In this document: piece after piece, positions 3,145 through 61,514 of the stretch | Layout: each line of letters opens with the position of its first letter | Numbering within the stretch: position 1 is the stretch's first letter | From: an uncultured Bacteroidales bacterium | GTDB lineage: Bacteria; Bacteroidota; Bacteroidia; Bacteroidales; Paludibacteraceae | DNA length: 64,000 nt | Direction: 5' to 3' | NCBI GenBank assembly: GCA_900319105.1 | Contig: ONND01000003.1 | Coordinates: 62,001-126,000 of the forward strand | Translations under genes and position numbers: made by a program | Notes under the pieces: model-generated | Seen by the model: the letters and a program-made list of their open reading frames with translations, nothing else | Told to the model about the DNA's origin: nothing | The model's database searches: none

Positions 3145-4110
3145 TTATAAGCTCTTGATATATTTGTCTGCTTCGATGGCAGCTTTGGCGCCTGAACCGG
3201 CAGCCACAATCGCCTGACGGTAATGCGGATCAGCGCAATCACCGGCAGCGAAGATACCGGGGAGGATTTGACATTTGTCATTTGACATTTGAGATTTATA
3301 ACACTGCGTGCTATTTCCTTCGGTGATGATATATCCTTCCGCATCGCGGGCGATGTAGTCCTTGAACAACTCCGTATTGGGATGATGGCCGATAGCAAGG
3401 AAGAAGCCATCGATATCAATATGCTTCATCGCCTCGTCGGGTTCGCCCTTGCGGTAGATAAGGTCCGCTCCTTGTACTTTGCCGTCGCCGGTGAGTTGAA
3501 GAGTATTATGCTCAAAGAGCACTTCTATCTTGGGGTTATTGAGGACACGTTGCTGCATGATCTCCGAGGCACGCAGGAAAGGCTTGCGGACGATCATATA
3601 TACTTTCTCGCAGAGTCCGGCGAGGTAGTTGGCTTCTTCGCACGCCGTGTCACCGCCGCCCACAACTGCTACGGTCTTCTTGCGGTAGAAGAATCCGTCG
3701 CAGGTAGCACAGGCACTCACGCCACGACCTTTGTAGGTACGCTCGGACTCGATACCGAGATACTTGGCACTCGCGCCGGTGGCGATGATGACAGCATCGG
3801 CTTCGTACAAGTCTGTGTCTTCTACCCACACTTTCTTCGGGGATACCGAGAAATCCACCTTGGTGACAATGCCGGAGACGAAGGTCGTACCGAAACGCTC
3901 TGCCTGGCGACGCATGTCATCCATCATCGTGAAGGGGTCGACACCATCCGGATAGCCGGGGAAGTTCTCCACCTCCGTGGTGGTCGTCAGTTGTCCGCCG
4001 AGTTGCGGTCCTTCAATGAGCACCGGTGCCAGGTTCGCACGACCGGCATAAATAGCCGCCGTGTAGCCCGCTGGGCCGGAACCGATAATCAAGCATTTTA
4101 CTTTATTCAT
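3145..4110 (-). CDS. trxB: Thioredoxin reductase with in-frame repeat insertion
   Basis: This NADPH- and FAD-dependent enzyme reduces thioredoxin; a TrxA is encoded at 44550-44864. The FAD motif GSGPAGYTAAIYAGRA is near residue 11, the redox-active pair is in CATCDGFF, the NADPH motif is VVGGGDTACEEA, and the second FAD motif is GIFAAGDCAD. The protein is 321 residues, slightly longer than usual. About 11-13 residues (YKSQMSNDKCQ) between GNSTQ and LPGIFAAGD are encoded by a copy of the TTTGACATTTG repeat at 3265-3302, which is found between genes elsewhere in the window. The reading frame stays open, so the enzyme is probably functional. Its start overlaps the end of the LolA-like gene by 4 bases. 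Confidence 0.94.
   Translation of the reverse strand: MNKVKCLIIGSGPAGYTAAIYAGRANLAPVLIEGPQLGGQLTTTTEVENFPGYPDGVDPFTMMDDMRRQAERFGTTFVSGIVTKVDFSVSPKKVWVEDTDLYEADAVIIATGASAKYLGIESERTYKGRGVSACATCDGFFYRKKTVAVVGGGDTACEEANYLAGLCEKVYMIVRKPFLRASEIMQQRVLNNPKIEVLFEHNTLQLTGDGKVQGADLIYRKGEPDEAMKHIDIDGFFLAIGHHPNTELFKDYIARDAEGYIITEGNSTQCYKSQMSNDKCQILPGIFAAGDCADPHYRQAIVAAGSGAKAAIEADKYIKSL
3265..3302. repeat. Family A iterated repeat inside trxB
   Basis: Four variants of a 9-10 base word (ATTTGACATTTG, GTCATTTGACATTTGAGATTT) follow one another. The same word occurs at 22240, 26124, 30803, 55891 and 60862. Here it lies within trxB and adds roughly a dozen residues without breaking the frame. Confidence 0.85.
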
Positions 4111-4676
4111 AGTCTCATATCATTTACGTACGTATTTTTACTGGGTTTGAGTACAAATATGTACTCGGGATTTGTTGGTATAAACTTCGGCTCTTTGAGT
4201 TTGAGCGTCGTACTCTTCTTACCCTCTTTCACCTCTACGGACAGCGGCATCAGATCGTCGTTTCGCACCTTGAGCACAAAGCGGTTGATCCCGATGGATT
4301 GATCTTTCGGAGTCAGCGTGATGATCGTTTGTTTACCATCATTCGCGGGTCTCTCCGTAACATTACATACACCGACGAGCGCCCGCGCGTAGCGAAAAGG
4401 ATTCACCTCTAATAGTTCCTGCTCGGTCGGGTTGGAGAGCGTTAGTTCGTCGGTCTGACCGGAGTACATATACATCGTTTTGCCGTCGTACGCCGCCTCT
4501 ATATCCATAGCCTCCAAGCGGAACTTATCGCCCTGCATGATGATCTCACCGGGGTAGTTCATCGGCGATGCAACCTCCTCCGAGACCGTGACTGTAAAAG
4601 CAGTGTGAAGCGTCTTCTGCTCGAGGTTCGAGAGGAACGAGGTTAGGACCGTTAGTATTATCAATAATGTCGACAT
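4107..4676 (-). CDS. LolA-like outer membrane lipoprotein carrier protein
   Basis: A 189-residue protein with an N-terminal hydrophobic segment (STLLIILTVLTSFL) that looks like a short signal sequence. The middle part, with YPGEIIMQGDKFRLEAMDIEAAYDGKTMYMY, matches the beta-strand pattern of LolA-type periplasmic chaperones, which carry lipoproteins to the outer membrane. Position directly downstream of ftsK is a common Bacteroidota arrangement. The gene overlaps trxB by 4 bases, so co-transcription with ftsK and trxB is likely. LolA assignment rests on this pattern and context. Confidence 0.75.
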   Translation of the reverse strand: MSTLLIILTVLTSFLSNLEQKTLHTAFTVTVSEEVASPMNYPGEIIMQGDKFRLEAMDIEAAYDGKTMYMYSGQTDELTLSNPTEQELLEVNPFRYARALVGVCNVTERPANDGKQTIITLTPKDQSIGINRFVLKVRNDDLMPLSVEVKEGKKSTTLKLKEPKFIPTNPEYIFVLKPSKNTYVNDMRL

Positions 4677-4717
4677 GTTTTTAGATTTCTAGACTTCTAG
4701 AGCTCTAGAGCTCTATA
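4677..4717. repeat. CTAG-word iterated repeat (family F)
   Basis: The gap between ftsK and the lolA-like gene holds several copies of a word with CTAGA/CTAGAG (TTCTAGACTTCTAGAGCTC). Related CTAG-rich runs are at 12770, 60104 and 61468. No gene or clear terminator lies in this gap. Confidence 0.7.
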
Positions 4718-4724
4718 TTTGCAG

Positions 4725-7313: not shown

Positions 7314-7423
7314 AAATTAGCATGCAAAATTACAAATAATAATCGAGAATGTAAAATGAAAAATTAAAAAATTGCTCTTTTGTAGCAAAAATGACACTTT
7401 TTCTAAAAAAAACGCGCGCGCCC

Positions 7424-7454
7424 TTGCGTATATAGTTTTTTTTTCGTATCTTTG
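7424..7454 (+). promoter_or_regulatory. Promoter of rseC (TTG-N20-TATCTTTG)
   Basis: The -33 element TTG at 7424-7426 is followed by CGTATATAG, and the -7 box TATCTTTG lies at 7447-7454, 20 bases away. This is the Bacteroidota sigma consensus. The rseC ATG at 7473 follows after 18 bases. Confidence 0.8.
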
Positions 7455-7472
7455 CACCCGCTTTTTGTGATT

Positions 7473-8450: not shown

Positions 8451-8503
8451 CCAAATGGTCCGATAAATGGTAAATGGTAAATGACCAAATGGTAAATGGA
8501 ATT
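8449..8503. repeat. Family B iterated repeat (AAATGGTAAATGACC)
   Basis: About five tandem variants of AAATGGTAAATG / GACCAAATGGT fill the rnfB-rnfC gap and supply an in-frame alternative ATG for rnfC. Related runs are at 2383, 12129, 24088 and 30905. Confidence 0.85.
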
Positions 8504-9850
8504 ATGAGAACATTTAAAATAGGCGGAGTTCATCCGCATGACAACAAACAATTCTCCGCACACCAGCCTATCACGGCGTGCCCGCTGCCGAAACAAGCAA
8601 TTATTCCGCTGGTTCAGCATATCGGTGCACCGGCACAGGCGGTAGTAGAAGTCGGAGCGAAAGTAAAAGTAGGCGAACTGCTGGCGAAAGCCGGTGGATT
8701 CGTGAGTGCGAACATCTGCTCGCCGGTAAGTGGAACCGTAACAAAGATCGGTGATTGGACAGACGCTTGGGGCGCACCGGGACAGGCTATCTACATTGAT
8801 GTAGAGGGCGACGAGTGGATGCCGGAGATTGACCGCACGCCGGAGATTAACCGTCAGTGCACGCTGGAGCCGAAAGCCATCATCGACAAGATTGCCGCTG
8901 CAGGTATCGTAGGTCTCGGTGGTGCGTGCTTCCCGACGCATGTCAAACTGATGCCCCCTCCCGGCAAGAAAGCCGAAGTGCTGATTGTCAACGGTGTTGA
9001 GTGCGAGCCGTACTTGACTTGCGACCATCAATTGATGATGGAGCACGGCGAGGAGATTATCGTCGGTATTCAGATTCTGAAGAAAGCTCTCGGCGTAGAG
9101 CGCGCCATCATCGGTATTGAGAACAACAAACCAGATGCTATCGCTCACATGCGCGAGCTGGCAGAGAAACAGCTCGGTATTGAGGTAATGCCGCTCAAAC
9201 TGCGTTACCCGCAGGGCGGTGAGAAACAGCTCATCGACGCATGTATCGGTCGTCAGGTACCGAGCGGCGCACTACCTATCGAGGTGGGAGCGGTAGTAGA
9301 TAACGTAGCTACCATCTATGCGGTATATGAAGCCGTTCAAAAGAACAAACCGCTCGTCAGCCGCGTCATGACCGTAACCGGTAAAAACGTAGCTAAACCG
9401 GGTAACTACCTCGTTCGTTTCGGTACACCGATTGAGGAAGTGATTGCCCTTGCCGGCGGTGTTCCTGTGGATACCGGTAAGATCATCGGCGGCGGTCCGA
9501 TGATGGGTCGCGCGATGGATCATATCGAAGGTATGCCGGCTAACAAACGTCTGTCGGGTCTGCTGTTCCTCCCCGAAGCGGAATCTATCCGTCCGGAGGA
9601 AGACAACTGTATCCGTTGCGGCAAATGTGTTCAGGCTTGTCCGATGGGTCTCGAGCCTTACCTGCTCCAACGATTGAGCCAACTCGAGATGTGGGAGGAA
9701 TGCGAGAAGCACGATGTAATGGATTGTATCGACTGCGGTTGCTGTGTCTTTACCTGTCCTGCGCATCGCCGTCTGCTCGATGGTATTCGTCCCGCTAAAG
9801 CGAAAGTCGGTGCCATCCTCCGCGAGCGCGCCGCAGCGGCAAAGAAGTGA
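8504..9850 (+). CDS. rnfC: Rnf electron transport complex subunit RnfC
   Basis: A peripheral subunit that passes electrons between NAD(H) and the rest of the Rnf ion pump. Visible are the biotinyl/lipoyl-like N-terminal domain (GGFVSANICSPVSGTV), the nucleotide/FMN-binding region around GLGGACFPTHVK, and two 4Fe-4S motifs, CIRCGKCVQACP and CIDCGCCVFTCP, at about residues 370 and 410. The start chosen is MRTFKIGGVHPHDNK, the family start. The earlier in-frame ATG at 8474 only adds residues encoded by the AAATGGT repeat. Length (448) is normal. Confidence 0.95.
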   Translation: MRTFKIGGVHPHDNKQFSAHQPITACPLPKQAIIPLVQHIGAPAQAVVEVGAKVKVGELLAKAGGFVSANICSPVSGTVTKIGDWTDAWGAPGQAIYIDVEGDEWMPEIDRTPEINRQCTLEPKAIIDKIAAAGIVGLGGACFPTHVKLMPPPGKKAEVLIVNGVECEPYLTCDHQLMMEHGEEIIVGIQILKKALGVERAIIGIENNKPDAIAHMRELAEKQLGIEVMPLKLRYPQGGEKQLIDACIGRQVPSGALPIEVGAVVDNVATIYAVYEAVQKNKPLVSRVMTVTGKNVAKPGNYLVRFGTPIEEVIALAGGVPVDTGKIIGGGPMMGRAMDHIEGMPANKRLSGLLFLPEAESIRPEEDNCIRCGKCVQACPMGLEPYLLQRLSQLEMWEECEKHDVMDCIDCGCCVFTCPAHRRLLDGIRPAKAKVGAILRERAAAAKK

Positions 9851-9884
9851 TTTGATGATTTGAATATTTGAAAATTTGAAAGAT
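9851..9884. repeat. TTTGATGATTTGAAT iterated repeat
   Basis: The short rnfC-rnfD gap consists of four variants of a TTTGA(A/T)(A/T)A word, related in composition to family A. Confidence 0.6.
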
Positions 9885-10889
9885 ATGAAACAATTAATTG
9901 TAGCTCCGGCTCCTCACGCCCACAGCGGTGACAGTGTACGCCGGAATATGCTCTTGGTCATTCTCGCGCTGCTGCCTGCTTACGTGGTATCGGTGTTGGA
10001 ATTCGGCTGCGGAGCACTGATTACGGCTGCTATCTCGGTCATCGCTTGCGTTTGCACCGAGTGGGTCATCAGCCGTTACCTGCTCAAAGAGCAGCGTCAG
10101 ACCATAGGCGACCTCTCGGCTGTGCTGACCGGTCTGCTGTTAGCCTTCAACCTGCCGTCGAGCATCGACTGGTGGATTGTAATCATCGGCGCAGTTGTAG
10201 CCATCGGCGTTGGTAAAATGACTTTCGGCGGCTTGGGACAGAACCCCTTCAACCCCGCTTTGGTAGGTCGTGTATTCCTCTTGATCTCTTTCCCGGCTCA
10301 GATGACAACATGGCCGGTAGCCAAAGGTTTTGCAACGAGTTATGTCGATGCAGAGACCGGCGCTACCCCGCTCTATTATCTGAAGCACATGCTCAAAGCC
10401 GGCGACAGCTCTGTCATCGACCAGCTGCCTGCCCTCAAGGATGCTTTCTTAGGTGCGATGGGCGGTTCGCTCGCTGAGGTTTGCGCATTGGCACTCATCA
10501 TCGGCGGTCTGTTCCTGATCTGCACAAAAGTGATCACATGGCATATACCGGTTAGCATCATCGCTACGGTGGCGCTCTTCGCTGCTTGCACAGGATGGGT
10601 TGGCGCACTGCCCGAAGGAATGACTACCTGCAGTTATGTCGGATACGAGCTCCTGACCGGTGGTCTGATGCTCGGTGCGTTCTTCATGGCGACGGATTAT
10701 GTTACCAGCCCGATGAGCGCTTGGGGTAAGATCATCTTCGGTATCGGTATCGGCTTCATCATGATGGTCATCCGTACATGGGGTAACTATCCGGAAGGTA
10801 TGTCCTTCGCTATTCTGATCATGAACGCTTGCGTTCCATTGTTGAACAAGATTCGTCCGCAACGTTTCGGCGAGCCTAAAAAAGCATAA
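9885..10889 (+). CDS. rnfD: Rnf electron transport complex subunit RnfD
   Basis: An integral membrane subunit with about eight to ten helices that binds FMN covalently. The attachment motif TGATPLYYL, with the modified threonine, is present near residue 165. The N-terminus VAPAPHAHSGDSVRRNM and the segment FGGLGQNPFNPALVGRVFL are typical. The ATG at 9885 is chosen because the earlier TTG lies in a repeat. The stop is followed by an AAGGAGGT purine run 13 bases before rnfG. Confidence 0.95.
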   Translation: MKQLIVAPAPHAHSGDSVRRNMLLVILALLPAYVVSVLEFGCGALITAAISVIACVCTEWVISRYLLKEQRQTIGDLSAVLTGLLLAFNLPSSIDWWIVIIGAVVAIGVGKMTFGGLGQNPFNPALVGRVFLLISFPAQMTTWPVAKGFATSYVDAETGATPLYYLKHMLKAGDSSVIDQLPALKDAFLGAMGGSLAEVCALALIIGGLFLICTKVITWHIPVSIIATVALFAACTGWVGALPEGMTTCSYVGYELLTGGLMLGAFFMATDYVTSPMSAWGKIIFGIGIGFIMMVIRTWGNYPEGMSFAILIMNACVPLLNKIRPQRFGEPKKA

Positions 10890-11542: not shown

Positions 11543-12130
11543 ATGAATAACGCAATGAAAACATTGACCAACGGTATTCTCAAGGAGAATCCTACTTTTG
11601 CGTTGGTTCTTGGTATGTGCCCTACGCTGGCTACTACCACCAGTGCCGTTAACGGTATGTCCATGGGCTTGGCTACCCTGTTCGTGCTCGTTTGCTCGAA
11701 CGTGGTGATCTCGCTTCTGAAAAATCTCATCCCCGATAAAGTACGTATCCCGGCGTTCATCGTTGTGATTGCTACTTTCGTGACGATGGTACAGCTGGCG
11801 ATGCAGGCTTACCTGCCGGCAATCTACGACGTGCTGGGTCTCTTTATCCCGCTGATTGTAGTGAACTGTATTGTGCTCGGCCGTGCCGAAGCGTTTGCAG
11901 CGAAGAACACCGTAGGTCTCTCCGCTCTCGACGGACTGGGAATGGGGCTCGGATTTACCCTCTCGCTGACCGTACTGGGTATAATCCGTGAGTTCCTGGG
12001 AGCAGGTACTATCTTCGGTTTGACTATCTATAGCAGCCAGTTTGCTGCGCTGATTTTCGTACTCGCTCCGGGTGCGTTCATCTGCCTCGCTTACCTCATG
12101 GCAGCTGTCAACAAACTGCAGAAGAAATGA
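11543..12130 (+). CDS. rnfE: Rnf electron transport complex subunit RnfE
   Basis: A six-helix membrane protein of 195 residues, homologous to RnfA. Characteristic segments are NPTFALVLGMCPTLATTT near the start, VNCIVLGRAEAFAAKN in the middle, and GLGFTLSLTVLGIIREFLGAG. RnfA and RnfE together hold a 2Fe-2S cluster in the membrane; a candidate ligand is the Cys in LGMCPTLA. It is tightly linked to rnfG (ATG 2 bases after the stop). Confidence 0.94.
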   Translation: MNNAMKTLTNGILKENPTFALVLGMCPTLATTTSAVNGMSMGLATLFVLVCSNVVISLLKNLIPDKVRIPAFIVVIATFVTMVQLAMQAYLPAIYDVLGLFIPLIVVNCIVLGRAEAFAAKNTVGLSALDGLGMGLGFTLSLTVLGIIREFLGAGTIFGLTIYSSQFAALIFVLAPGAFICLAYLMAAVNKLQKK

Positions 12131-12164
12131 ACAAATGGTAAATGACTAAATTGTAAATAGCTTT
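12129..12164. repeat. Family B iterated repeat
   Basis: Three variants of AAATGGTAAATGACTAAATTG fill the rnfE-rnfA gap. Confidence 0.75.
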
Positions 12165-12769: not shown

Positions 12770-12813
12770 GCCCTAGGATCCTAGTAACCTGGTATCCTAG
12801 TTTCCTAGTCCCC
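12770..12813. repeat. CTAG-word iterated repeat (family F)
   Basis: After rnfA come four variants of CCTAGGATCCTAGTAACCTG, the CTAG-containing word also found at 4677, 60104 and 61468. Confidence 0.75.
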
Positions 12814-21514: not shown

Positions 21515-22198
21515 ATGAACCCCGTACAAATAGTTAAATATAAACAGCGGAAGAAACTCATTATCGGTTTGGGAGTCGTCTTTGGCGGCCTATGGTTGCT
21601 GTTGGTTTTCTATTGGTTAACCGGCAATAAACAAACTATTCCGTCCGTTCCTGCTGCACAGGTAACCGTTCATGCACCTTCGCCTGTAGCGACGGGAAGT
21701 ACGCCTGCGGCGACCTTCCGCAGTTCGCGCAGAGTAGCTCCGCTGATCCATCACAGTGCGGCAACACCATCATGGTCGTACGTTCAGAGTGCGCCCAAAG
21801 CAACGATGGGAAGTACGTCCATACGTATCCATCTGACGAGCAGCGCAACAGTGCACTCCATCGGCGGTGGAGGTGGTGGAGGCGCACTTTATACCACCAG
21901 CGGAGGCGGTAACAGCGGGAAAGGTATTCGTACTACTTCTTCGTCTATCAGTTTCGGAGGAAACTTGGTTGCACTCTCTGCTTCGACGGCTATCACTTCA
22001 CCCGGAGCCAAAGAGGCTAGCAGCCTTGCTTCTACGACCGCGGTATCCGGAAGCCTAGAGAGACCGGGTCGCATAAAGACAGTAAACGGTGACCCGAAGG
22101 ATCCATTCTTGGACCCGGTGGGCGATGTAGCATGGGGATGGATGCTACTACTTACCATTGCTTGGTGCGTACGAGTCCGCCTAAGCAAACGGCAATAA
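21515..22198 (+). CDS. Small Gly/Ser/Thr-rich protein with two membrane segments
   Basis: 227 residues of unknown function. A transmembrane helix (LIIGLGVVFGGLWLLLVFYW) lies near the N-terminus. A long Ser/Thr/Ala-rich region with a glycine tract (SIGGGGGGGALY) follows. A PVGDVAWGWMLLLTIAWCV helix ends the protein just before a basic tail, RVRLSKRQ. The short motif + helix + basic residues at the C-terminus resembles sorting-type anchors. The start is 18 bases after the large secreted protein and has AGGAGGAAG upstream, so the two are likely co-expressed. Its last 47 bases overlap the convergent AroA-GT gene. Confidence 0.6.
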   Translation: MNPVQIVKYKQRKKLIIGLGVVFGGLWLLLVFYWLTGNKQTIPSVPAAQVTVHAPSPVATGSTPAATFRSSRRVAPLIHHSAATPSWSYVQSAPKATMGSTSIRIHLTSSATVHSIGGGGGGGALYTTSGGGNSGKGIRTTSSSISFGGNLVALSASTAITSPGAKEASSLASTTAVSGSLERPGRIKTVNGDPKDPFLDPVGDVAWGWMLLLTIAWCVRVRLSKRQ

Positions 22199-24107
22199 TA
22201 TAGAAAGGATAGAGGAACTCCAATAGCAAAGCTATGGAGAGATTTGAGATTTGAGATTCGAGATTTGAGATTCGAGATTTTTGCTCCCTCATTTGCCGCT
22301 GGCGGATGAGGGAGTACTCTATCGGGAACTTGATCAGTATGATCAAGGGACAGAGGATTTGAAGGAGGTTGACTGCTACGACCAAAGCGCCGCAACGGAT
22401 GATGTCCGGGTCGGTGTATTTGGGTGCTTTACCCGCCCATCGCATTCGTTGGCGGAAGAACGCACGCCACGTGGAGGCAGGACGGACGACGGCGGTGAAG
22501 TCGGGTTCGTCGATGACGGAGATCTTGTAGCCGCGTTTTTTCATGGCTTCCAAGAGAAACATATCATCGCCGGATGGGATTTCCGGATGGAGGTCTGGTT
22601 CACAGGCAAGCCATGCTTCGCGACGGACGATGAGGTTCGCACCGGAACACATGACGGCATGACCTGCTTTAGCCGTGCGCATGGTTAACTCCTGGATAGC
22701 GGCGTATTCGGCAATCTGTAAGCCCCCTCCGACTCCCCCCTGAAGGGGGAGAGAAACCATGCGGAGGGGAAGGATGATGAGGTCGGCGTTTGGTATTAGA
22801 CCGCCTTGCTGTAAGACCGTTTCACTGTAAGACCGCTGCGCTGTAAGACCGGCGCGATGCGCCTGTAGGATAGGCGGCCAAAGGACGTCGTCATCGTGGA
22901 GCCAGACGTATTCGGTAGTGGCGGCGTGAATGAGTTTGGAGAGGGCGTGTTTTTTGCCCATATTGTCATCATTGATGCCCTTTTTGGGGGTGATATGGGT
23001 AACCGACGGCATCTGTTTCTCGTACTGACACTGTCTGTCGTTGCCGTGTCGTTGCCGTGTCGTTACCGTGTGAACCTCTACAAACTCAGGAAAACTCTTC
23101 GCAATACATCCCTGTTCCTGTTCAGAAACGGGAAAATCCGCACACATCAGCGCCATCGCCATTCGGTGGTCGTTACGGACTTCGTGGAGCCGGACGGCTT
23201 CGAGACGGTCGGATTCTTTAAAACGGAGACGGTCGGTACCTGTGGCGCGGAGGGTGATGCCGAGGCGTTCACAGGTGAGGGCGATTGCCGGATAGAGGTC
23301 GGGAATTCTCTCAAAATTGAGAGAGACCGCCTTCGGCTGACGGATTAAAGACCGCCCTGCGGGCTGACAGACCGCTTCGCTGACAGACCGAATTACTGCC
23401 CCATTTTCTACAAACTCCGTTTGGACGCCGAAGTGGGTGGCGTAGAGGTCTGCGACGATGCGGTCGCCTTGGAGGGAGTCGGGTTTGAGGCCTTCGAGGA
23501 GTAACTCGCCGCCATGAATAGCGATGTACTCGTACCAGAAGGCAGCGGAAGACCAGTCGGGTTCTAACAGACCGGCTACGCCTGTAAGACCGCTTCGCTG
23601 TAAGACCGTTTCACTGTAAGACCGCTCACGTAGTTCGCTGTAAGATTCCCTTATGCGGCGGCTCATGGTGATATAGGGAGATTCGTCGGGAGAGACGGGG
23701 ATGGGTTCTCCGTGGAGAATGAGAGCAGAGGTGGTTTGGGTCGTGGGTGCCCCATTACGCTCCATAAGACGCGGGTCACCGGTGAGGGTGATTGGTGCGC
23801 CCGGGTAACATTTGGCGATATGGACTTGCAAGAAGCGGAGGGCGGTACCGCAGTTTTTCAAAGAGAGCCCCAAGCCCCCCTCGGTCCCCCCATGAAGGGG
23901 GGAAGAAGGAGAAGATGCATATGCTTCAGGCGTGCCGAAGATGTCACGGATTTGTTGAAGGGCGTCATGAAGGACGATGACATCGTCCGGCATATCCGAA
24001 GAGACCCGCATAAGCGGATCTCCATGGATAGCCTGCAATAGAAGGATTCTATTGGCTATAGATTTAGAAATTGGCAAATGAATATGTACCATTTGGTCAT
24101 TTACCAT
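22152..24107 (-). CDS. Fusion of EPSP synthase (AroA) and an N-terminally truncated GT2 glycosyltransferase
   Basis: Residues about 7-345 are 3-phosphoshikimate 1-carboxyvinyltransferase, which makes EPSP in the shikimate pathway. It retains the residues expected at the active site: LPISKSIANR, TTQTTSAL, RIPDLYPA, KESDRLEA, NDHRMAMA and AKSFPEF. Two loops are shortened and three repeat copies are inserted (about 65-79, 153-181, 236-255). An iterated ACGGCAACGAC stretch (about 345-361) then leads straight into a family 2 glycosyltransferase. That part starts at QMPSVTHITPKKG, keeps LHDDDVLWPP and RMRW, but lacks the usual first 70 or so residues. It carries four more repeat-derived patches and C-terminal membrane helices. 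The first codons (MVNDQ) come from an AAATGGT repeat; Met7 may be the true start. Confidence 0.8.
   Translation of the reverse strand: MVNDQMVHIHLPISKSIANRILLLQAIHGDPLMRVSSDMPDDVIVLHDALQQIRDIFGTPEAYASSPSSPLHGGTEGGLGLSLKNCGTALRFLQVHIAKCYPGAPITLTGDPRLMERNGAPTTQTTSALILHGEPIPVSPDESPYITMSRRIRESYSELRERSYSETVLQRSGLTGVAGLLEPDWSSAAFWYEYIAIHGGELLLEGLKPDSLQGDRIVADLYATHFGVQTEFVENGAVIRSVSEAVCQPAGRSLIRQPKAVSLNFERIPDLYPAIALTCERLGITLRATGTDRLRFKESDRLEAVRLHEVRNDHRMAMALMCADFPVSEQEQGCIAKSFPEFVEVHTVTTRQRHGNDRQCQYEKQMPSVTHITPKKGINDDNMGKKHALSKLIHAATTEYVWLHDDDVLWPPILQAHRAGLTAQRSYSETVLQQGGLIPNADLIILPLRMVSLPLQGGVGGGLQIAEYAAIQELTMRTAKAGHAVMCSGANLIVRREAWLACEPDLHPEIPSGDDMFLLEAMKKRGYKISVIDEPDFTAVVRPASTWRAFFRQRMRWAGKAPKYTDPDIIRCGALVVAVNLLQILCPLIILIKFPIEYSLIRQRQMREQKSRISNLESQISNLSIALLLEFLYPFYIIAVCLGGLVRTKQW
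22213..22315. repeat. Family A repeat plus variable hairpins in the GT2 C-terminal region
   Basis: 22240-22281 holds five GAGATTTGAGATT/C variants. They are flanked by two inverted repeats, TCCAATAGC/GCTATGGA (22213-22235) and CTCCCTCAT/ATGAGGGAG (22284-22313). All of it is read through as protein (ISNLESQISNL). Confidence 0.75.
22720..22756. repeat. Family D repeat (CCCCC...GGGGG stem-loop) in the GT2 part
   Basis: CCCCCCTGAAGGGGGGAG-type stem with a flanking half copy (AGCCCCCTCCGACT). It encodes LPLQGGVGGGL in frame. Confidence 0.75.
22798..22865. repeat. Family C 16-base iterated repeat in the GT2 part
   Basis: Four units of CTGTAAGACCG followed by variable bases that can form a tiny stem (CTGCG, GCGCGATGCGC). 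It encodes AQRSYSETVLQQGGL. Confidence 0.85.
23025..23073. repeat. Iterated GTTGCCGTGTC repeat at the AroA-GT2 joint
   Basis: Three to four copies of an 11-base word (GTCGTTGCCGT) lie exactly where AroA homology ends and glycosyltransferase homology begins. Confidence 0.8.
23341..23400. repeat. Family C variant (CTGACAGACCG) inside AroA
   Basis: Three units of GCTGACAGACCG with variable mini-stems (CCCTGCGGG, GCTTCGC). It encodes RSVSEAVCQPAGRS within AroA. Confidence 0.8.
23565..23650. repeat. Family C 16-base iterated repeat inside AroA
   Basis: Five units of CTGTAAGACCGCTTCG and variants. It encodes about 28 residues including RSYSETVLQRSGL inserted before LLEPDWSSAAFW. Confidence 0.85.
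23869..23911. repeat. Family D repeat inside AroA
   Basis: CCCCCC-ATGAA-GGGGGG stem with flanking GCCCCCCTCGG. It encodes SSPLHGGTEGGL within AroA. Confidence 0.8.
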
Positions 24108-26148: not shown

Positions 26149-26156
26149 TTGATAAT
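26124..26156. repeat. Family A iterated repeat supplying a start codon
   Basis: ATATTTGATATTTGATATTTGACATTTG variants. Read on the minus strand it gives the ATG and first nine codons of the DPP III-like peptidase. Confidence 0.85.
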
Positions 26157-29830: not shown

Positions 29831-29865
29831 TTTGGACAGAGGACAGAGGACAATGGACAATGGAC
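29831..29865. repeat. GGACAATGGACA iterated repeat (family H)
   Basis: TTGGACAGAGGACAGAGGAC and AATGGACAATGGACA words lie between the small-lipoprotein terminator and the PCMD promoter. Confidence 0.7.
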
Positions 29866-29899
29866 AAAAAAAATAGGCCACTCGTGCGAGTGACCTATT
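29866..29899 (-). terminator. Intrinsic terminator of the small lipoprotein gene
   Basis: On the minus strand AATAGGTCACTCG-CACGAGTGGCCTATT forms a hairpin followed by eight T residues. It begins 17 bases after the stop of the 71-residue lipoprotein gene. Confidence 0.9.
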
Positions 29900-30236: not shown

Positions 30237-30821
30237 TTACATTTTTATGCGTTTTTTCAATATTTCGTACACTTTATGTACCGGAAATCCCATTACATTG
30301 AAGTAAGAACCGTGCATGGATGTACATGCCACATATCCGATCCACTCCTGTACGCCATAGGAGCCGGCTTTATCAAACGGGCGGTATTTGGCGACGTAAT
30401 AGCGGATCTCTTCGTCGGAGAGTTCAGCAAAAGTAACGTCGGTCTTGTCCACTATTGTCTCCATCTCTCTCCCCTTTTCAGCAAAGGTGACAGCCGTGAA
30501 GACCTGATGCGTTTTGCCGCTCAGGGCACGAAGCATAGCGAAAGCTTCGGCTTCGTCATGTGGTTTGCCAAGCATGTGTCCGTCGAGCCAGACGATGGTA
30601 TCGGCGGTAATGAGGAGTTGGTTTTCGGTAAGGTTAGGCGCGTACGCCTGCGCTTTCGCGCGCGAGATATAATAAGGAATATCGCCGGCCTTGAGATCAG
30701 CAGGATAAGACTCATCGGCATCAATCGTGATTGCCGTAAAGGGTATATCTAAACCTTCGAGCAGCGCACGCCTTCTTGGCGATGCGCTGCCCAGCAGTAT
30801 ATCATATTTTATATTTGACAT
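30237..30821 (-). CDS. maf: Maf-like nucleotide pyrophosphatase
   Basis: A 194-residue house-cleaning enzyme that hydrolyses non-canonical nucleoside triphosphates. The signature LLGSASPRRRALLEGL opens the protein; ITADTIVWLDGHMLGKP and GSYGVQEWIGY follow, as usual. The ATG and first codons (MSNIKYD) lie inside a family A repeat, so the native N-terminus has been replaced or provided by the repeat. It follows parC by 14 bases and is the last gene of that run. Confidence 0.92.
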   Translation of the reverse strand: MSNIKYDILLGSASPRRRALLEGLDIPFTAITIDADESYPADLKAGDIPYYISRAKAQAYAPNLTENQLLITADTIVWLDGHMLGKPHDEAEAFAMLRALSGKTHQVFTAVTFAEKGREMETIVDKTDVTFAELSDEEIRYYVAKYRPFDKAGSYGVQEWIGYVACTSMHGSYFNVMGFPVHKVYEILKKRIKM

Positions 30822-30839
30822 TTGAGATTTGAGATTTAG
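30803..30839. repeat. Family A iterated repeat at the maf start
   Basis: ATATTTTATATTTGACATTTGAGATTTGAG variants span from within maf to the parC stop. Confidence 0.85.
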
Positions 30840-33656: not shown

Positions 33657-33690
33657 TTTCAGTTATCAGTTTTCAGTTATCAGTATTCCG
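33657..33690. repeat. CAGTTATCAGTTTTCAGTTATC iterated repeat
   Basis: Four variants of TCAGTTATCAGTTTTCAG sit between the promoter and the ATG of the 54-residue protein, i.e. in its 5' leader. Confidence 0.75.
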
Positions 33691-33707
33691 TTTTTTGAAA
33701 CCGGCTG

Positions 33708-55178: not shown

Positions 55179-55211
55179 ATATCAATTATCAATTATCAAT
55201 TATCAATTATT
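55179..55211. repeat. ATCAATTATCAATT iterated repeat
   Basis: Four exact ATCAATT units occupy the place where a -33 element would be expected for the gldD promoter. Confidence 0.8.
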
Positions 55212-55243: not shown

Positions 55244-55888
55244 ATGGACTTTTGGCAAAAAAATACACTACACACCGTACACCGTACACTGTACACCGTA
55301 CACCTTACACTATACACCATAGTGTTGATAACATGTGTTGCCTGCAACAATGTTTCAACGCCCAAACCCTACGGCTATTACCGCATCGCCGTACCCGACA
55401 CTTCCTACATCGATTTTGCGACATCCCGCCTCTCCCCCTCCATAGGGGAGCCGGAGGGGGCCTACCCCTATACCTTCGCCCTTTCGCGTAATGCCGTCGT
55501 CAAACCGCGGGCAGAAGAACCTTACTGGATCGACCTCTATTATCCCGCGCTGGATGCCACAATCCATTGCTCCTACAAACCCGTTCGTTCAAACCTCCGC
55601 GAGCTGACCAACGACGCACTCGAGTTTGTCTATCGCAATGCCTCGTTTGCCAATGCGATTCCTGAGCGGGAATATAATCACCCGGAGGCGAAGGTTTATG
55701 GCGTACTCTTTGATTTGGAGGGAAATACGGCTTCGTCATGCCAGTTCTTTATTACCGATTCCACGCATCATTTCTTCCGTGCTTCGGTCTATTGTAACTG
55801 CCAGCCGAACGCAGACTCACTCGCCCCGGTATATAACTACCTCCGCACAGACGTCATCAAAATGGTAGAAACCTTCCGCTGGAATTGA
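55244..55888 (+). CDS. gldD: Gliding motility/type IX secretion lipoprotein GldD
   Basis: A 214-residue lipoprotein of the gliding and type IX secretion machinery. The mature part has PKPYGYYRIAVPDTSYIDF, YWIDLYYPALDATIHCSYKPV and LFDLEGNTASSCQFFITDSTHHFFRASVY, all typical of GldD. The signal peptide (TLHTVHRTLYTVHLTLYTIV, then LITCVAC with the lipid-modified Cys) is encoded almost entirely by an iterated ACACCGTACACCGT repeat. A family D repeat encodes about residues 63-75 (SPSIGEPEGA). It starts the plus-strand run ending with the BASS transporter. Confidence 0.9.
   Translation: MDFWQKNTLHTVHRTLYTVHLTLYTIVLITCVACNNVSTPKPYGYYRIAVPDTSYIDFATSRLSPSIGEPEGAYPYTFALSRNAVVKPRAEEPYWIDLYYPALDATIHCSYKPVRSNLRELTNDALEFVYRNASFANAIPEREYNHPEAKVYGVLFDLEGNTASSCQFFITDSTHHFFRASVYCNCQPNADSLAPVYNYLRTDVIKMVETFRWN
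55266..55325. repeat. ACACCGTACACTGT iterated repeat encoding the GldD signal peptide
   Basis: Seven variants of a 7-8 base CGTACAC/CTATACAC word. Codons 8-27 of gldD, the hydrophobic signal core, lie within it. Confidence 0.88.
55432..55470. repeat. Family D repeat inside gldD
   Basis: CTCCCCCTCCATAGGGGAG followed by GGAGGGGGC, in frame in gldD. Confidence 0.7.
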
Positions 55889-55890
55889 TT

Positions 55891-55926
55891 AAATGTCAAA
55901 TAACAAATATCAAATATCAAATATCC
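55891..55926. repeat. Family A iterated repeat supplying the GGGP synthase start
   Basis: AAATGTCAAATAACAAATATC and two more CAAATAT units. The first ATG and codons 2-10 of the fusion gene lie in it. Confidence 0.85.
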
Positions 55927-57113
55927 CAAAGGGATTAGCGCTTCTTCTCGATCCTGAGAAAGCGGACCTCTCCGCATTGCCTTTCTCCGAAGACTGCCTT
56001 CCCGATTATATTTTCGTCGGCGGTTCCACCGGCGGTGATCCCACCGCTTTCGTCCGTGCCCTCAGAGAGAAACTGTCATCCACCTCTTCCCCCCTTCACG
56101 GGGGGATCGAGGGGGGCCTTCCCATCATCCTCTTCCCCGGCTCTGCCGACCAGTTTACACCCGAAGCAGACGCCATCCTGTACCTCTCGTTGCTCTCAGG
56201 ACGAAACCCAGAATATCTTGTAGATCAGCAGGTTAGATCGGCAAGAGCCATACATGACTCGTCCGTAACCGTCATCCCTACCGCCTACATCCTCATCGAC
56301 GGTGGAGTAGAGACTTCCACCATGCGCGTGACGGGTACCCCCCCCCTCTCTCCCTCAGATCTCCCTACCATCATCGACACCTGTATAGCAGCGGAATTGA
56401 TGGGCAAGAAAGCGATCTATCTCGAAGCCGGATCGGGTGCCAAGACTCCCGTCTCGCCGGAGATCATACGCGAGGTACGGAAAAACACCTCCGTCACCCT
56501 CATCGTCGGTGGCGGAATACGCACTCCCGAAGCGATGCAAGCCGCTTATTCCGCCGGAGCTGACATCGTCGTCATCGGCAATCATTTCGAGTCCCATCCC
56601 GAGGACCTGAATAGTTTTCTTACAGCGAAGCGGTCTTACAGCGAAGCGGTCCTACAGCAGAGCGGTCTTACAGCGCAGCAGTCAGCCGACGAGCGCTTCA
56701 TGCGCCTCGCCCTCGCAGAGGCGCAAAAAGCGCTCTCCGCCAACGAGATCCCCATCGGATGTGTCATCGTCTCTCAAAACCGGATCATCGGTCGCGGACA
56801 TAACCTCACCGAGACCCTGGCAGACGTCACGGCGCATGCAGAGATACAGGCGATTACCGCCGCTACGCAAACGGTCGGAGGCAAATACCTCCCCGACGCT
56901 ACCCTATACGTCACCGTCGAACCCTGCACGATGTGTGCAGGTGCCATAGGATGGGCGCAGATAAGCCGCATCGTCTATGGCGCACCCGATCCCAAACGTG
57001 GCTATGCCACCTACGCACCGCGCGCCTTCCATCCCAAAGCGACGGTTACATCGGGGGTACTCGAAGCGGAATGTCGCGAACTCATGCAAGAATTTTTTAA
57101 AACGAAACGGTAA
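55893..57113 (+). CDS. Fusion of geranylgeranylglyceryl phosphate synthase-family protein and tRNA adenosine deaminase TadA
   Basis: Residues about 11-240 match the GGGPS/PcrB prenyltransferase family that links a polyprenyl chain to glycerol-1-phosphate: LALLLDPEKADL, DYIFVGGSTGGDP, YLEAGSGAKTPVS, LIVGGGIRTPEAMQAAYSAGADIVVIGN. Residues about 266-406 are TadA, which makes inosine-34 in tRNA: THAEIQAI-type TAHAEIQAI and EPCTMCAGAI zinc/catalytic motifs. The two are joined by 24 residues encoded by a family C repeat (KRSYSEAVLQQSGLTAQQ). No stop or new start codon for TadA is conserved, except a Met at FMRLALAEAQ. A family D repeat lies near residues 65-78. The products may act as one polypeptide, or TadA may reinitiate at that Met. 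Confidence 0.87.
   Translation: MSNNKYQISNIPKGLALLLDPEKADLSALPFSEDCLPDYIFVGGSTGGDPTAFVRALREKLSSTSSPLHGGIEGGLPIILFPGSADQFTPEADAILYLSLLSGRNPEYLVDQQVRSARAIHDSSVTVIPTAYILIDGGVETSTMRVTGTPPLSPSDLPTIIDTCIAAELMGKKAIYLEAGSGAKTPVSPEIIREVRKNTSVTLIVGGGIRTPEAMQAAYSAGADIVVIGNHFESHPEDLNSFLTAKRSYSEAVLQQSGLTAQQSADERFMRLALAEAQKALSANEIPIGCVIVSQNRIIGRGHNLTETLADVTAHAEIQAITAATQTVGGKYLPDATLYVTVEPCTMCAGAIGWAQISRIVYGAPDPKRGYATYAPRAFHPKATVTSGVLEAECRELMQEFFKTKR
56088..56125. repeat. Family D repeat inside the GGGP synthase part
   Basis: CCCCCC-TTCAC-GGGGGG stem with trailing ATCGAGGGGGGCC, encoding SSPLHGGIEGGL. Confidence 0.85.
56619..56688. repeat. Family C 16-base repeat forming the GGGPS-TadA linker
   Basis: Four units of CTTACAGCGAAGCGGT (variable part GCGAAGC, GCGAAGC, GCAGAGC, GCGCAGC). 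It is read in three successive frames as TAKRSY, SEAVLQ, QSGL. Confidence 0.9.
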
Positions 57114-59026: not shown

Positions 59027-60105
59027 TGCAAGAATATCTTACAGCGAAGCGGTCAGAGCGCAACGCGCTCTATTTAGCTCCCATGGAGGACGTCACAGAC
59101 CCCGCCTTCCGCATGCTCTGCAAACGCTACGGAGCCGACCGAGTCTATACCGAGTTCGTCAATGCCGACGCGCTTGTACGGGACGTCTCCTCCACTACAC
59201 GCAAACTGACCATCCATGACGAAGAACGACCTGTCGCTATACAGATCTACGGACGCGAACCGGAAGCCATGCGGGACGCGGCGATCATCGTCGAACAAGC
59301 CAAACCCGACTTCATCGACATCAATTTTGGCTGCCCCGTGAAGAAAGTAGCGGGCAAAGGGGCCGGCGCAGGACTCCTTCGAGACGTACCTAAGATGCTC
59401 GAGATCACCAAAGCCGTCGTGAACGCCGTTCACACTCCCGTCACCGCCAAGACCCGCCTCGGCTGGGATGAACCGTCGTTATACCTGAGTGACGGCACGC
59501 CGTTCATCGTCGATCTCGCCGAGCGGCTTCAGGACTGCGGCATCGCCGAACTCGCCATACATGGACGCACCCGCAGCCAGATGTACCGCGGAGAAGCCGA
59601 CTGGACGCTCATCGGTGAGGTCAAGAACAACCCGCGCATGCGCATACCTATTATAGGTAACGGGGACGTGTGTACGCCCGAACGCGCACGCGAGTGTTTC
59701 GATCGTTACGGCGTGGATGCCATCATGATCGGACGTGCCACCTTTGGTGCCCCTTGGCTCTTCGCCGAAATGAAAGAATATCTATCTGGTAATTCGGTCT
59801 GTCAGTCCGAAGGACGGTCTGTCAGCAACGCGGTCTGTCAGCAACGCGGTCTGTCAGCGGCTCCGCCGCGGTCTATGGCGGAAAAGGTCGCCGTTCTGAA
59901 AGAACACGTACTTTCCGCCATACAATGGTGTGGCAATGACGAGCGAAAAGGCATCGTCCATTCGCGCCGCCATTTTGCCGCCTCGCCGGTCTTCAAAGGT
60001 CTCGATAACTTCAAGCAAACACGCATAGCCCTCCTTCGTGCCGACACCCTCGCCGAGGTCTTCGCCATCATGGATGACATCGTCGCCAAATGGGGTGACA
60101 ACTAG
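59026..60105 (+). CDS. dusB: tRNA-dihydrouridine synthase (DusB-like) with repeat insertion
   Basis: A flavoenzyme that reduces uridines in tRNA D-loops. Core motifs are LYLAPMEDVTDPAFRML, YGREPEAMRDAA, DINFGCPVKKVAGKGAGAGLL and HGRTRSQMYRGEADW; MIGRATFGAPWLF follows. Two repeat-derived patches are seen: residues about 5-15 (LTAKRSERNAL) before the core, and about 257-283 (CQSEGRSVSNAVCQQRGL and on) between the barrel and the C-terminal helical domain, at the hinge. Both keep the frame. It follows the HD-phosphodiesterase with TAATG overlap. Confidence 0.9.
   Translation: MQEYLTAKRSERNALYLAPMEDVTDPAFRMLCKRYGADRVYTEFVNADALVRDVSSTTRKLTIHDEERPVAIQIYGREPEAMRDAAIIVEQAKPDFIDINFGCPVKKVAGKGAGAGLLRDVPKMLEITKAVVNAVHTPVTAKTRLGWDEPSLYLSDGTPFIVDLAERLQDCGIAELAIHGRTRSQMYRGEADWTLIGEVKNNPRMRIPIIGNGDVCTPERARECFDRYGVDAIMIGRATFGAPWLFAEMKEYLSGNSVCQSEGRSVSNAVCQQRGLSAAPPRSMAEKVAVLKEHVLSAIQWCGNDERKGIVHSRRHFAASPVFKGLDNFKQTRIALLRADTLAEVFAIMDDIVAKWGDN
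59038..59071. repeat. Family C repeat at the DusB N-terminus
   Basis: TCTTACAGCGAAGCGGTCAG followed by AGCGCAACGCGCTC, one full unit and a mini-hairpin. Confidence 0.75.
59796..59876. repeat. Family C variant repeat (GTCTGTCAG) inside dusB
   Basis: Four units of GTCTGTCAG plus mini-stems TCCGAAGGA, CAACGCG, CAACGCG and GCGGCTCCGCCGC, all ending GGTC. The stem part varies while keeping self-complementarity in two units. Confidence 0.85.
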
Positions 60106-60147
60106 ATAAACTAGTTATACTAGTTAAACTAGATCTACTAGATAACA
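60104..60147. repeat. CTAG-word iterated repeat (family F)
   Basis: Five variants of ACTAGATAAACTAGTTATACTAG fill the dusB-BASS gap. Confidence 0.85.
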
Positions 60148-60150
60148 ACA

Positions 60151-61215
60151 ATGAGAAAATTCTTTGACTCCAACGCCCTCTGGCTCTCGATGCTTATCGG
60201 AGCTCTGGGATACCAACTCTTCCTTCCCCTCAAGCCAACGCTCCCTTGGCTCATTTTCTTTATGCTTTTCTTCACCTTCTGCAAGGTGAATCCCCTCGAC
60301 TTACGCCTTCATCGCTGGCATTGGGCAGTACTGATCACCCAACTTGTCCTTAGTTTCCTCACCTATACCCTGGTCCTGTATTTCACCGGCAATCCGATCC
60401 TCGCGCAAGGACTACTCATGTGTTTCATCATGCCTACAGCCACCGCGGCACCGATCATAGCAGGTAAGATGGGTGGTTCTATCCAAAACCTCACCACCTT
60501 CACCCTCCTCTCTAATTTTGCGACGGCTATCATCGTTCCGGCTACTTTCCCGCTCATCAATCCGGCAGCTGACATGACTTTCCTCCCTGCTTTCTTGCTC
60601 ATCCTCTCCCGCGTCGCACCTCTCCTCTTGGGTCCTTTCTTCTCCGCTTGGCTCCTCCGTATAGGCTATAACTACTACTATCGCCGCCAATATCTATCAG
60701 CGAAGCGGTCCTACAGCGCAAGCGGTCCTACAGCGCAGCGGTCTAACAGCCCGCAGGGCGGTCAAAAGGAGTTTGTGCTGCCCCAAAGCTGGGCACAAAC
60801 GCCCTTTTATTTGTGGGTCGCTTCCATAGTCGTCCTAACAGCCGTTGTCACGGAAACAACCATCTCAAATTTCAAATTTCAAATCTCAAATATACTAATT
60901 CTATTAGTATTCTCTTTCCTCGCTTGCCTCATCCAGTTCGCCCTCGGCAAACTCATCGGCTACCTTATGCCGGCTCCCTCGAAGGGCACCGACTATCAGG
61001 ATGTACTCATCAATCCCGCTGCGGCACCTACAACGATGGCCGAGGTCTCTTCCATTACCGCCGGACAAGCCTTCGGACAAAAGAACACCTCCCTCGGTGT
61101 ATGGATGGCGCAGACCTACCTCTCTCCCTTGGCTGCTCTTGGTGCCGCAGCCTATATAATCTGGCAGAACATCTTCAATTCCGTCCAACTCTTCGTCGTC
61201 GCCCATAAGAAATGA
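60151..61215 (+). CDS. Bile acid:sodium symporter (BASS) family transporter with two repeat insertions
   Basis: A 354-residue membrane protein with eight to nine helices. Typical segments are FCKVNPLDLRLHRWHW, LLMCFIMPTATAAPIIAGKMGG, and near the end AFGQKNTSLGVWMAQTYLSP. The substrate in Bacteroidota is not known to me; organic anion transport with Na+ is inferred. About 24 residues (181-204; SAKRSYSASGPTAQRSNSPQ) from a family C repeat lie in a loop after YNYYYRRQ. Ten residues (237-247; SNFKFQISN) from a family A repeat lie just before the next membrane helix. Neither breaks the frame. Confidence 0.85.
   Translation: MRKFFDSNALWLSMLIGALGYQLFLPLKPTLPWLIFFMLFFTFCKVNPLDLRLHRWHWAVLITQLVLSFLTYTLVLYFTGNPILAQGLLMCFIMPTATAAPIIAGKMGGSIQNLTTFTLLSNFATAIIVPATFPLINPAADMTFLPAFLLILSRVAPLLLGPFFSAWLLRIGYNYYYRRQYLSAKRSYSASGPTAQRSNSPQGGQKEFVLPQSWAQTPFYLWVASIVVLTAVVTETTISNFKFQISNILILLVFSFLACLIQFALGKLIGYLMPAPSKGTDYQDVLINPAAAPTTMAEVSSITAGQAFGQKNTSLGVWMAQTYLSPLAALGAAAYIIWQNIFNSVQLFVVAHKK
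60693..60764. repeat. Family C repeat inside the BASS transporter
   Basis: TCAGCGAAGCGGTCCTACAG and three further units, with mini-stems GCGCAAGC, GCGCAGC and CCCGCAGGG, each followed by GGTC. Confidence 0.85.
60862..60893. repeat. Family A repeat inside the BASS transporter
   Basis: ATCTCAAATTTCAAATTTC and AAATCTCAAAT units in frame. Confidence 0.8.
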
Positions 61216-61407
61216 TATTTTTAATTAGCTTCGGATGTTTTTTATGTTTATGTTCTTTTATTTATAAGCCTCGGTGCTTATAAAACCGAAGGATCACCCA
61301 ATCATTACCCAAGGATTACCCAAGGATAACTCCACAAAAATGCTGTAAAACATACGTTTACTATATATATACATAGTATATATATACTTTTTTTGTATTT
61401 TTTTTAT

Positions 61408-61438
61408 TTGCGTATATCAAAAAAAAGTTGTAACTTTG
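61408..61438 (+). promoter_or_regulatory. Promoter of the 801-residue secreted protein
   Basis: TTGCGTATATCAA (-33 at 61408-61410) and TAACTTTG (61431-61438), 20-base spacing. The leader before the ATG is about 120 bases. Confidence 0.82.
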
Positions 61439-61467
61439 CGCCGGATTTTTGTGAAAATAGGAAAGAC

Positions 61468-61514
61468 ATGGTTCTACTAGTTTGGCTAGTTTACTAGTTC
61501 ACTAGTTCCACTAT
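61468..61514. repeat. CTAG-word iterated repeat in the 5' leader
   Basis: TTCTACTAGTTTGGCTAGTTT and ACTAGTTCACTAGTTCC units, within the transcribed leader. Confidence 0.8.

Follow-up and report, generated by a model that had tools for sequence, protein, structure and literature searches.

The DNA described here is a 64-kb stretch (the window) of a metagenome-assembled genome (MAG) from an uncultured member of the Bacteroidales (G000; 2.26 Mb in 30 contigs, about 91% complete). Arrays of short words, iterated with small changes, lie between and within its genes, and our subject is the replacement of these words by unrelated ones in related species. Toward the right end of the window, on the plus strand, a TATCAAT heptamer array lies at 55180-55210, and an open reading frame (ORF) for a GldD-like lipoprotein has an ACACCGT heptamer array in its first part (55264-55321) and a GC-rich palindromic element in frame (55434-55462). 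A CAAATAT heptamer array (55891-55925) lies between the gldD-like gene and pcrB, and pcrB is joined in frame, via a repeat linker, to a gene for a deaminase domain (55893-57113) that we take to be TadA. A GC palindrome occupies a loop site in the PcrB part of this gene (56076-56120), and the linker contains four 16-nt hairpin units (56592-56693). Farther on, a single copy of the 16-mer stands at the start of a dihydrouridine synthase gene (59038-59053), hairpin units form an insert in the same gene (59785-59880), and a CTAGTT/CTAGAT array (60100-60145) makes up 89% of the gap after it. The membrane protein encoded next (60151-61215), perhaps of the 'BASS' type, matched nothing in Pfam or NCBIfam at E 1e-5; its gene holds hairpin units at 60661-60801 and CAAATTT heptamers at 60865-60900. 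An 11-mer array of ACCCAAGGATT (61285-61327) and, ahead of the following ORF, an 8-mer array of CTAGTT (61475-61513) complete this part of the window. The genes that flank arrays are ordinary. They include PcrB, the deaminase domain and the GldD-like lipoprotein; elsewhere in the window an SdhA/FrdA flavoprotein, RnfC and thioredoxin reductase matched over curated cut-offs, an FtsK-like protein fell below its cut-off, and the dihydrouridine synthase is closest to DusB, yet below the DusB cut-off.

The original prediction, made from the letters of the window, held that many unrelated families of short words had been multiplied in a common manner, and the arrays that it pointed to are real. In the window, an ungapped period scan (score at least 14) detects 20 arrays, whereas five Markov shuffles gave 0.0 on average; nine of the 20 have a period of 7 and five a period of 16-17. 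Tandem Repeats Finder (TRF), run without a shuffle control, reported 59 rows at scores of at least 30. Eight of the 12 words named earlier exceed shuffle expectation (0.00-0.10) as exact words, namely TTTGACATTTG (4 copies), AAATGGTAAATG (5), CTTACAGCGAAGCGGT (4), CCCCCTTCATGGGGGG (1), GCCATTAGCC (1), GGACAATGGACA (2), CAGTTATCAGTTTT (1) and GTTGCCGTGTC (2), three of the eight having one exact copy each. The other four are iterated locally only and are not clearly enriched as bare words (observed versus expected: CTAGTT, 13 versus 22; GTCTTTT, 11 versus 7.9; CGTACAC, 8 versus 6.3; ATCAATT, 13 versus 11.8). That many gaps between genes consist of nothing else was an overstatement: with 30 arrays picked by hand from the TRF list and the period scan, at least 80% of the sequence is array in only 5 of 33 gaps of 8-400 nt, and 432 of their 3,358 bases are inside arrays. 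Copies within genes, also predicted, were found for 15 of the 20 arrays, a count made with our own ORF caller, which over-counts arrays at gene starts as in-gene because it runs each ORF to the first possible start.

The arrays extend well beyond the window. A tandem-repeat scan of 20 further stretches of the same genome (347,326 bases) gave 73 arrays and one shuffle gave none; 23 of the 73 have a period of 7, and 28 are within called genes, with the same excess at gene starts. Per 10 kb, this sample contains 2.1 arrays; the density is 1.33 for 11 Prevotella-type loci and 0.88 for 6 loci from other phyla, and the 4.3 found in the loci of 55 relatives is biased upward, since those loci are centred on a repeat-rich region. 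We followed the distribution of two words. CAGCGAAGCGGTCT occurs 28 times in G000 and is present in 43 of 61 genomes of the genus (G000 included), and among 148 genomes from elsewhere in the order, 3 have a single copy each. GACCAAATGGTAAATGA, searched for in G000 and in those 148 genomes, has 6 copies in G000 and none in the others. Overall, the lexicon comprises at least ten unrelated short families, with words of 7, 8, 9, 11 and 15 nt, the 16-nt mini-hairpin units and GC palindromes, and the notion of many unrelated families sharing one mode of behaviour across the genome is borne out.

We compared orthologous loci in up to 57 relatives, from collections with one genome per species. By their record titles these relatives (loci with L numbers) are mostly MAGs or uncultured Bacteroidales, several of them Paludibacteraceae and many from the ruminant gut; the contents of G022 and G021 (L082 and L084) match those of L002 and L015 at the compared sites, so at least some relatives belong to the genus that was searched. 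Eight places were cut out by means of conserved peptide anchors and given family labels by hand-made patterns, with 46-58 of 58 rows used per site. L081, L082 and L084, the only located rows of L081-L092, were dropped because they duplicate the window or genomes that the set already contained, and L057-L062, L064-L070 and L072-L080 were left out of the site comparison. At the PcrB loop, the PcrB-deaminase linker, the DusB insert, the membrane-protein insert and the gaps, the words differ between species, which speaks against old, static copies shared by all. Each site has 6 to 11 label classes among 46-58 species, 'empty' and 'other' being counted as classes; one class at the PcrB loop is in fact a hairpin under the wrong label. 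Among 58 species the linker is in frame in 55 and falls into 11 classes, which include hairpin 16-mers, AAATGG/AAATGACC, ATCTCG, CTAGTT, TAAGGAC, ACTCCGA and GTCAATCG; the PcrB loop has a 21-nt content in 31 of 56 species, the DusB insert is empty (18 nt) in 15 of 53, the membrane-protein site is empty (60 nt) in 29 of 46, and the gap before pcrB (55877-55931) is likewise variable.

Close relatives often carry different labels. In six pairs with 94-96% identity in the neighbouring HDIG gene, labels differ at 25 of 42 site comparisons, three of these pairs being drawn from three genomes and hence not independent; with a seventh pair (88%) the count is 26 of 49 (6, 6, 3, 3, 3, 4 and 1 of 7 sites per pair). 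The clearest case is L004/L006, in which 200-nt flanks are 91-98% identical around unrelated contents at six sites. Comparison of species, made with pairs in which both flanks are at least 80% identical, shows content to differ as a patch of about 20-140 nt within flanks that stay similar. The converse was found by comparing contents of at least 40 nt in at least one row, with N skipped. L012 and L023, whose HDIG genes are only 67% identical, have a content that is identical over 56 of 56 nt, flanked by 150 nt on each side with a mean identity of 84%; the exact match covers 85 nt, running from the left edge of the content to 29 nt into the highly conserved start of the dihydrouridine synthase gene, and four further pairs have exact runs of 50, 58, 71 and 88 nt. 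When labels are mapped by parsimony onto the HDIG protein tree, their changes come near those of shuffled labels (observed versus shuffled: PcrB loop, 19 versus 21.8; linker, 33 versus 38.5; DusB insert, 31 versus 32.8; membrane-protein insert, 13 versus 16.3; DusB start, 25 versus 32.5; next gap, 24 versus 26.9; gap before pcrB, 26 versus 33.3).

A separate locus behaves similarly. The window has CAAAT-type heptamers at 3266-3297, in frame in the thioredoxin reductase ORF (3145-4110, minus strand), where 23 of 29 rows from genomes of the genus show 24 nt of plain sequence. The site is filled in four rows, one of them the window's own, with CAAAT heptamers, a CCGATAA/CCGCTCA heptamer array or, in two rows, GC palindromes, and two other rows are longer without iteration. 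The filled rows share a similar 'TQCY/TRCY' flank, and three families behind such a flank indicate different contents inside one filled backbone.

Contents also recur, as shared stretches of sequence show, whether at the corresponding site of another species or at sites unrelated to it. Among 278 filled contents (empty sites and contents shorter than 21 nt being skipped), 104 are shared with the same site in another species and 139 have an exact 18-mer in common with a non-homologous site; 51 are both shared and ectopic, 53 shared only, 88 ectopic only and 86 neither. In all, 447 distinct 18-mers were found in the contents of two or more sites. Upstream coding controls with neighbouring inserts masked had 30 ectopic 18-mers of 16,345, all at the membrane-protein site, one of seven. 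Left unmasked, the ectopic control was 0.064 at two sites, and once neighbouring inserts were masked and the exclusion zone was widened, one of these sites gave 0 and the other had nothing countable. A process that simply multiplies whatever short word is present, as first proposed, finds no support in that form, because words also recur between sites and between species.

Inside genes, length and frame are preserved, to judge from the lengths between anchors: the length of the contents is a multiple of 3 in 54 of 56, 55 of 58, 53 of 53, 46 of 46 and 44 of 46 species at five in-gene sites, compared with 9 of 54, 15 of 49 and 3 of 56 at three gap sites. Whole words seem to come, go or give way to others without disturbing the reading frames of ordinary enzymes.

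One rival account of such variation is that these are ordinary hypervariable loops and spacers, in which slippage makes and erases arrays at each site separately, a few old alleles pass from species to species by homologous recombination, and words do not move between sites. The sharing of 104 contents between species at the same site is in keeping with it, and recombination is visible in L003/L010, where the flanks of the membrane-protein site are 95-100% identical compared with 86% for the HDIG gene. The heptamers also fit, since slippage favours them by a published hypothesis, which links their excess with the DNA segment that the polymerase holds (PMC4692102). We nevertheless hold this account to be unlikely, if a serious contender. 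It leaves aside the 139 contents with 18-mers of unrelated sites, slippage cannot convert heptamers into GC hairpins between flanks of about 95% similarity, and the five exact matches that we inspected between distant or differing genomes extend over 50-88 nt and not over kilobases.

We instead favour, with a probability of roughly 0.55, an explanation in which unrelated short words from a shared lexicon come to occupy permissive sites through local iteration, short-patch replacement and selection for frame. The permissive sites are gaps between genes, seams between genes, linkers between domains and, by inference, surface loops. A word would be iterated locally by replication slippage or template switching, which we take as the likeliest candidates for this step. 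Whole contents would be replaced through short-patch recombination, the single-stranded DNA for it coming either from elsewhere in the genome or, by uptake, from relatives, and selection would discard products that break the frame. With the three steps acting together, a dedicated transposase, RAYT or reverse transcriptase would be unnecessary. Illegitimate recombination of short patches with single-stranded DNA is a known process; our literature search on it returned general microhomology papers only. The repeats are most likely tolerated passengers rather than regulators, and the observations point to fast, small-scale rewriting of the genome.

Several observations weigh against this explanation. 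The main sites come from one stretch of about 5 kb that was picked for its repeat richness, with thioredoxin reductase as the sole separate locus, and all comparisons are between species-level MAGs, no swap having been seen within one species. Some close pairs largely retain their labels (L036/L037 at 6 of 7 sites; L006/L008, L007/L012 and L015/L016 at 4 of 7 each). Most sites keep some phylogenetic signal in their labels, most observed parsimony values being at or below the lowest of 60 shuffles, with the DusB insert as an exception. At least two labels were wrong: the PcrB loop of L044 is really hairpin-like, and the gap after dusB in L006 holds a 198-nt element that is not an array. The 86 contents that are neither shared nor ectopic, in the sequences compared, have the same bearing. 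Finally, the CAAATTT site (60865-60900) is 36 nt long in 43 of 46 species and showed no abrupt swap, with none of 19 similar-flank pairs having contents less than 60% identical; its fraction of ectopic 18-mers (0.082) is barely higher than the 0.064 of an unmasked control, no masked control being left there. Words at this site seem to drift together without jumping.

Could an enzyme move the words? Transposition of the kind proposed for repetitive extragenic palindromic (REP) elements and their REP-associated tyrosine transposases (RAYTs), or for miniature inverted-repeat transposable elements (MITEs), would suit the palindromic families, that is, the GC palindromes and the 16-mer hairpins, and the transposase domain Y1_Tnp is over the cut-off in 8 of 26 genomes of the genus. 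G000 itself, with 28 exact copies of the hairpin word, has only a partial Y1_Tnp match below threshold (20.6 versus 23 bits), and for these two reasons the RAYT-like enzyme suggested earlier is not supported. The heptamer families, moreover, are without inverted ends by eye, and no sequence is common to the families. We therefore consider transposition improbable. The reverse transcriptase (PF00078) suggested alongside the RAYT was not found in G000 and is over the cut-off in 6 of the 26 genomes; as G000 is only about 91% complete, the absence of a match there is not proof that an enzyme is absent. Ku-based end joining was rejected, Ku having been found in none of the 26 genomes, nor in G000. 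DprA (24 of 26) and the Pfam Competence domain (23 of 26) are compatible with DNA uptake, though common in bacteria. Separately, we noted in the window's genome a 326-aa ORF with the partial Y1_Tnp match (L001:1294-2274) and, in several relatives, open frames of 330-440 aa with partial Y1_Tnp matches, which may represent a divergent RAYT-like family.

The 16-mer family has a structure of its own. Each of 241 units reads CAG-core-CGGTC, with a core that could form a short stem and a loop. At least two stem pairs are present in 222 of the 241, a count that includes G-T pairs as well as the outer G-C demanded by the search, and not all pairs are G-C. Of 173 triloops, 129 are G-N-A, and of 31 tetraloops, 24 are G-N-N-A; among distinct cores with at least two pairs the counts are 23 of 38 and 12 of 17. 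The family matches, as far as its letters go, the GNA/GNNA loop rule of extra-stable DNA mini-hairpins such as d(GCGAAGC), as given in PMC4686876; there, too, a short stem carries a G-N-A or G-N-N-A loop, but those hairpins are chosen oligonucleotides, whereas these are genomic arrays. When 3´ halves were swapped among distinct cores, the number with at least two extra pairs fell from 25 of 90 to 11.3 ± 2.4 (maximum 21 in 1000); the units are related by descent, so these counts are not of independent compensations. Generic DNA folding energies argue against the hairpin reading: z values for four arrays were 1.22, -1.44, -0.73 and 1.28, and even for the best-folding array, 18 of 200 shuffles did equally well or better. 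If the reading is right, this family would place in natural genomes a structure that we know, with no literature search aimed at genomic arrays, only as a laboratory oligonucleotide. SbcD is a subunit of a hairpin nuclease, and we considered its loss as a cause of hairpin tolerance. Only 5 of 26 genomes of the genus, and not G000, have it over the cut-off; the idea was dropped because hairpin copy number does not track SbcD, which G024 has together with 46 hairpin words, while no hairpin word occurs in eight genomes where SbcD is not over the cut-off.

Orientation bears on whether the arrays could act in RNA, as sites for the ribosome or an RNA-binding protein, which has been proposed for the TAACTGA repeats of Beggiatoaceae. 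Several arrays stand at gene starts in operons, and a gap on the minus strand (33656-33692) contains an array of 14-nt period with TAACTGA, identical to the word of MacGregor (2015). The main families within genes are in sense (CAAAT, 39 of 39; hairpin, 22 of 23; AAATG, 19 of 19; TCAAT, 28 of 31). This bias is largely due to stop codons, which bar reversed contents; only 61 of 162 would be free of stops if reversed. Minor in-gene patterns are without it (GACAT, 2 in sense and 4 antisense; GGTTAG, 0 of 2 in sense), and CAAAT arrays in gaps number 1 in sense and 12 antisense, the ORF caller booking sense arrays at gene starts as in-gene. Furthermore, the word family at a site changes freely, and the GNRA rule for RNA loops fits only 6 of 24 GNNA loops. 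Regulation at the RNA level seems to us quite improbable.

Assembly or binning could also have produced swapped contents, by chimeric joins between metagenomes. Repeats are risky to assemble from short reads, the relatives are mostly MAGs or uncultured, and the content of the PcrB loop in L045 has a run of N that breaks the frame. Against such an artefact, a near-identical PcrB loop is present in L004, L005 and L008, and a TCAATTG loop in L003, L006, L015 and L016, which belong to different projects by record title; frame is kept in genes with 0 to 3 exceptions per site; and the swapped families are without obvious common sequence at which mis-joining could occur. We regard this as highly improbable.

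The ingredients of the pattern are each known: heptamer arrays, in-frame palindromic elements and variable segments. Their combination, interchangeable iterated words at orthologous in-frame sites, did not turn up in our literature searches, nor did any description of word swapping at orthologous sites, which is no proof that it is unpublished. The nearest relatives are the heptamer repeats of cyanobacteria, Beggiatoaceae and some Bacteroidetes, described by MacGregor (2015; PMC4679880) as slightly varied 7-nt words in tandem that lie chiefly in gaps and in many cases close to gene starts, and TAACTGA itself occurs here. Tandem 7-nt words above chance, the mark of these short tandemly repeated repetitive (STRR) or TAACTGA-type sequences, account for the period-7 arrays of the window and the genome sample. 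The same source gives the Beggiatoa genome one favoured word and mainly intergenic repeats; our arrays differ in that 28 of 73 in the sample are in called genes, and that at least ten unrelated words, of which heptamers are only a part, take turns at orthologous sites, many of them in frame within housekeeping genes. PMC4679880 and PMC4692102, the latter on heptamers of Xanthomonas and Nostoc, report mostly 7-nt indels between two close Cyanothece strains and mixed heptamers in one Microcystis genome, and the latter also reports Xanthomonas species in which sites are kept while length and sequence vary.

Segment replacement is also seen at microdiversity loci (Touzain, 2010; PMC2884548), where short segments are replaced at fixed loci, 35-55% of them intragenic with frame kept, and where illegitimate recombination is invoked. 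We found the same combination of short replaced segments, fixed loci, similar flanks and preserved frame, only between species; theirs is variation within species, with exactly two alternatives as the largest category and minisatellites at only 2-4% of E. coli loci, whereas here most contents are iterated lexicon words, with up to 11 label classes per site. Rickettsia palindromic elements (RPEs) likewise include several unrelated families in frame in unrelated genes (PMC10969869). In-frame palindromic insertion is seen here for the hairpin and GC palindrome families only, and RPEs, at about 150 bp, differ from these contents of about 20-140 nt, which are usually iterated and replace each other at one site. 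PARCEL repeats are also intragenic tandem palindromic repeats of punctate distribution, but encode one 25-residue motif (PMC2996958), whereas word and peptide here vary by family. REP elements with RAYTs are all palindromic and extragenic, unlike our heptamers, non-palindromic by eye, and the many in-gene copies. Short tandem words in bacteria have mostly been described as gap words, and the orthologous sites provide a natural record of their gain and loss; with turnover of words and frame kept, the rate and the donors of short-patch rewriting could be directly measurable.

Two fused ORFs in the window have an array at the seam. In the PcrB-deaminase gene, the frame is open in 55 species, all with at least 66 nt between the anchors, usually iterated and of changing family; L056, L063 and L071 have an in-frame stop in the linker, as expected of separate genes. 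The two genes are separate in many genomes of the genus, and our species set is enriched for fusions because it was collected with the fused protein as the query. The variable, iterated content at this seam suggests a route to gene fusion. The second case is a 651-aa ORF on the minus strand (22152-24107), in which AroA-like and glycosyltransferase-like parts are linked by an 11-mer array (TGTCGTTGCCG as read on the plus strand; 23036-23071), the AroA-like match being under the NCBIfam and over the Pfam cut-off. It contains five more inserts of three families: two mini-hairpin arrays (22798-22851 and, in the AroA-like part, 23569-23626), two GC palindromes (one of them CCCCCTTCATGGGGGG at 23886-23901, also in the AroA-like part) and a CAAATCT-type heptamer array near the end of the ORF (22239-22280), those located here being in frame. 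It is conceivable that a dedicated micro-cassette exchange system writes lexicon words into fixed sites and thereby fuses neighbours such as pcrB and the deaminase gene or the aroA-like and glycosyltransferase-like genes, with the mini-hairpins as substrates or priming ends; we find this doubtful.

The window contains further arrays. On the plus strand, an 8-mer array of TTTCTAGA (4678-4720) fills 90% of a 48-nt gap, and a TAAATGG heptamer array (8464-8499) spans the gap before rnfC together with the called rnfC start. An 8-mer array of GATTTGAA (9849-9889) fills the gap after rnfC, a 15-nt array of AAATGAACAAATGGT (12125-12158) makes up 82% of the 34-nt gap before the gene for an Rnf-Nqr membrane subunit, and an 8-mer array of CCTAGTAT (12772-12809) comes after that gene. 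On the minus strand, a CAAATAT-type array (26124-26154) and a heptamer array that reads TGGACAA on the plus strand (29833-29867) are at called gene starts, a CAAAT-type array (30804-30837) fills the 14-nt gap before a Maf-like gene, and a GTCTTTT heptamer array lies at 35113-35144.

Other kinds of element were seen in the gaps of relatives. Around dusB in L005, L006, L018, L035, L039 and L054, elements of about 190-285 nt with AT-rich ends, possibly MITE-like, take the place of the short arrays, and a palindromic element of the type ATCGACCATGCATGGGCGAT occurs at unrelated gaps in L007, L012, L015, L022, L023, L028 and L045.

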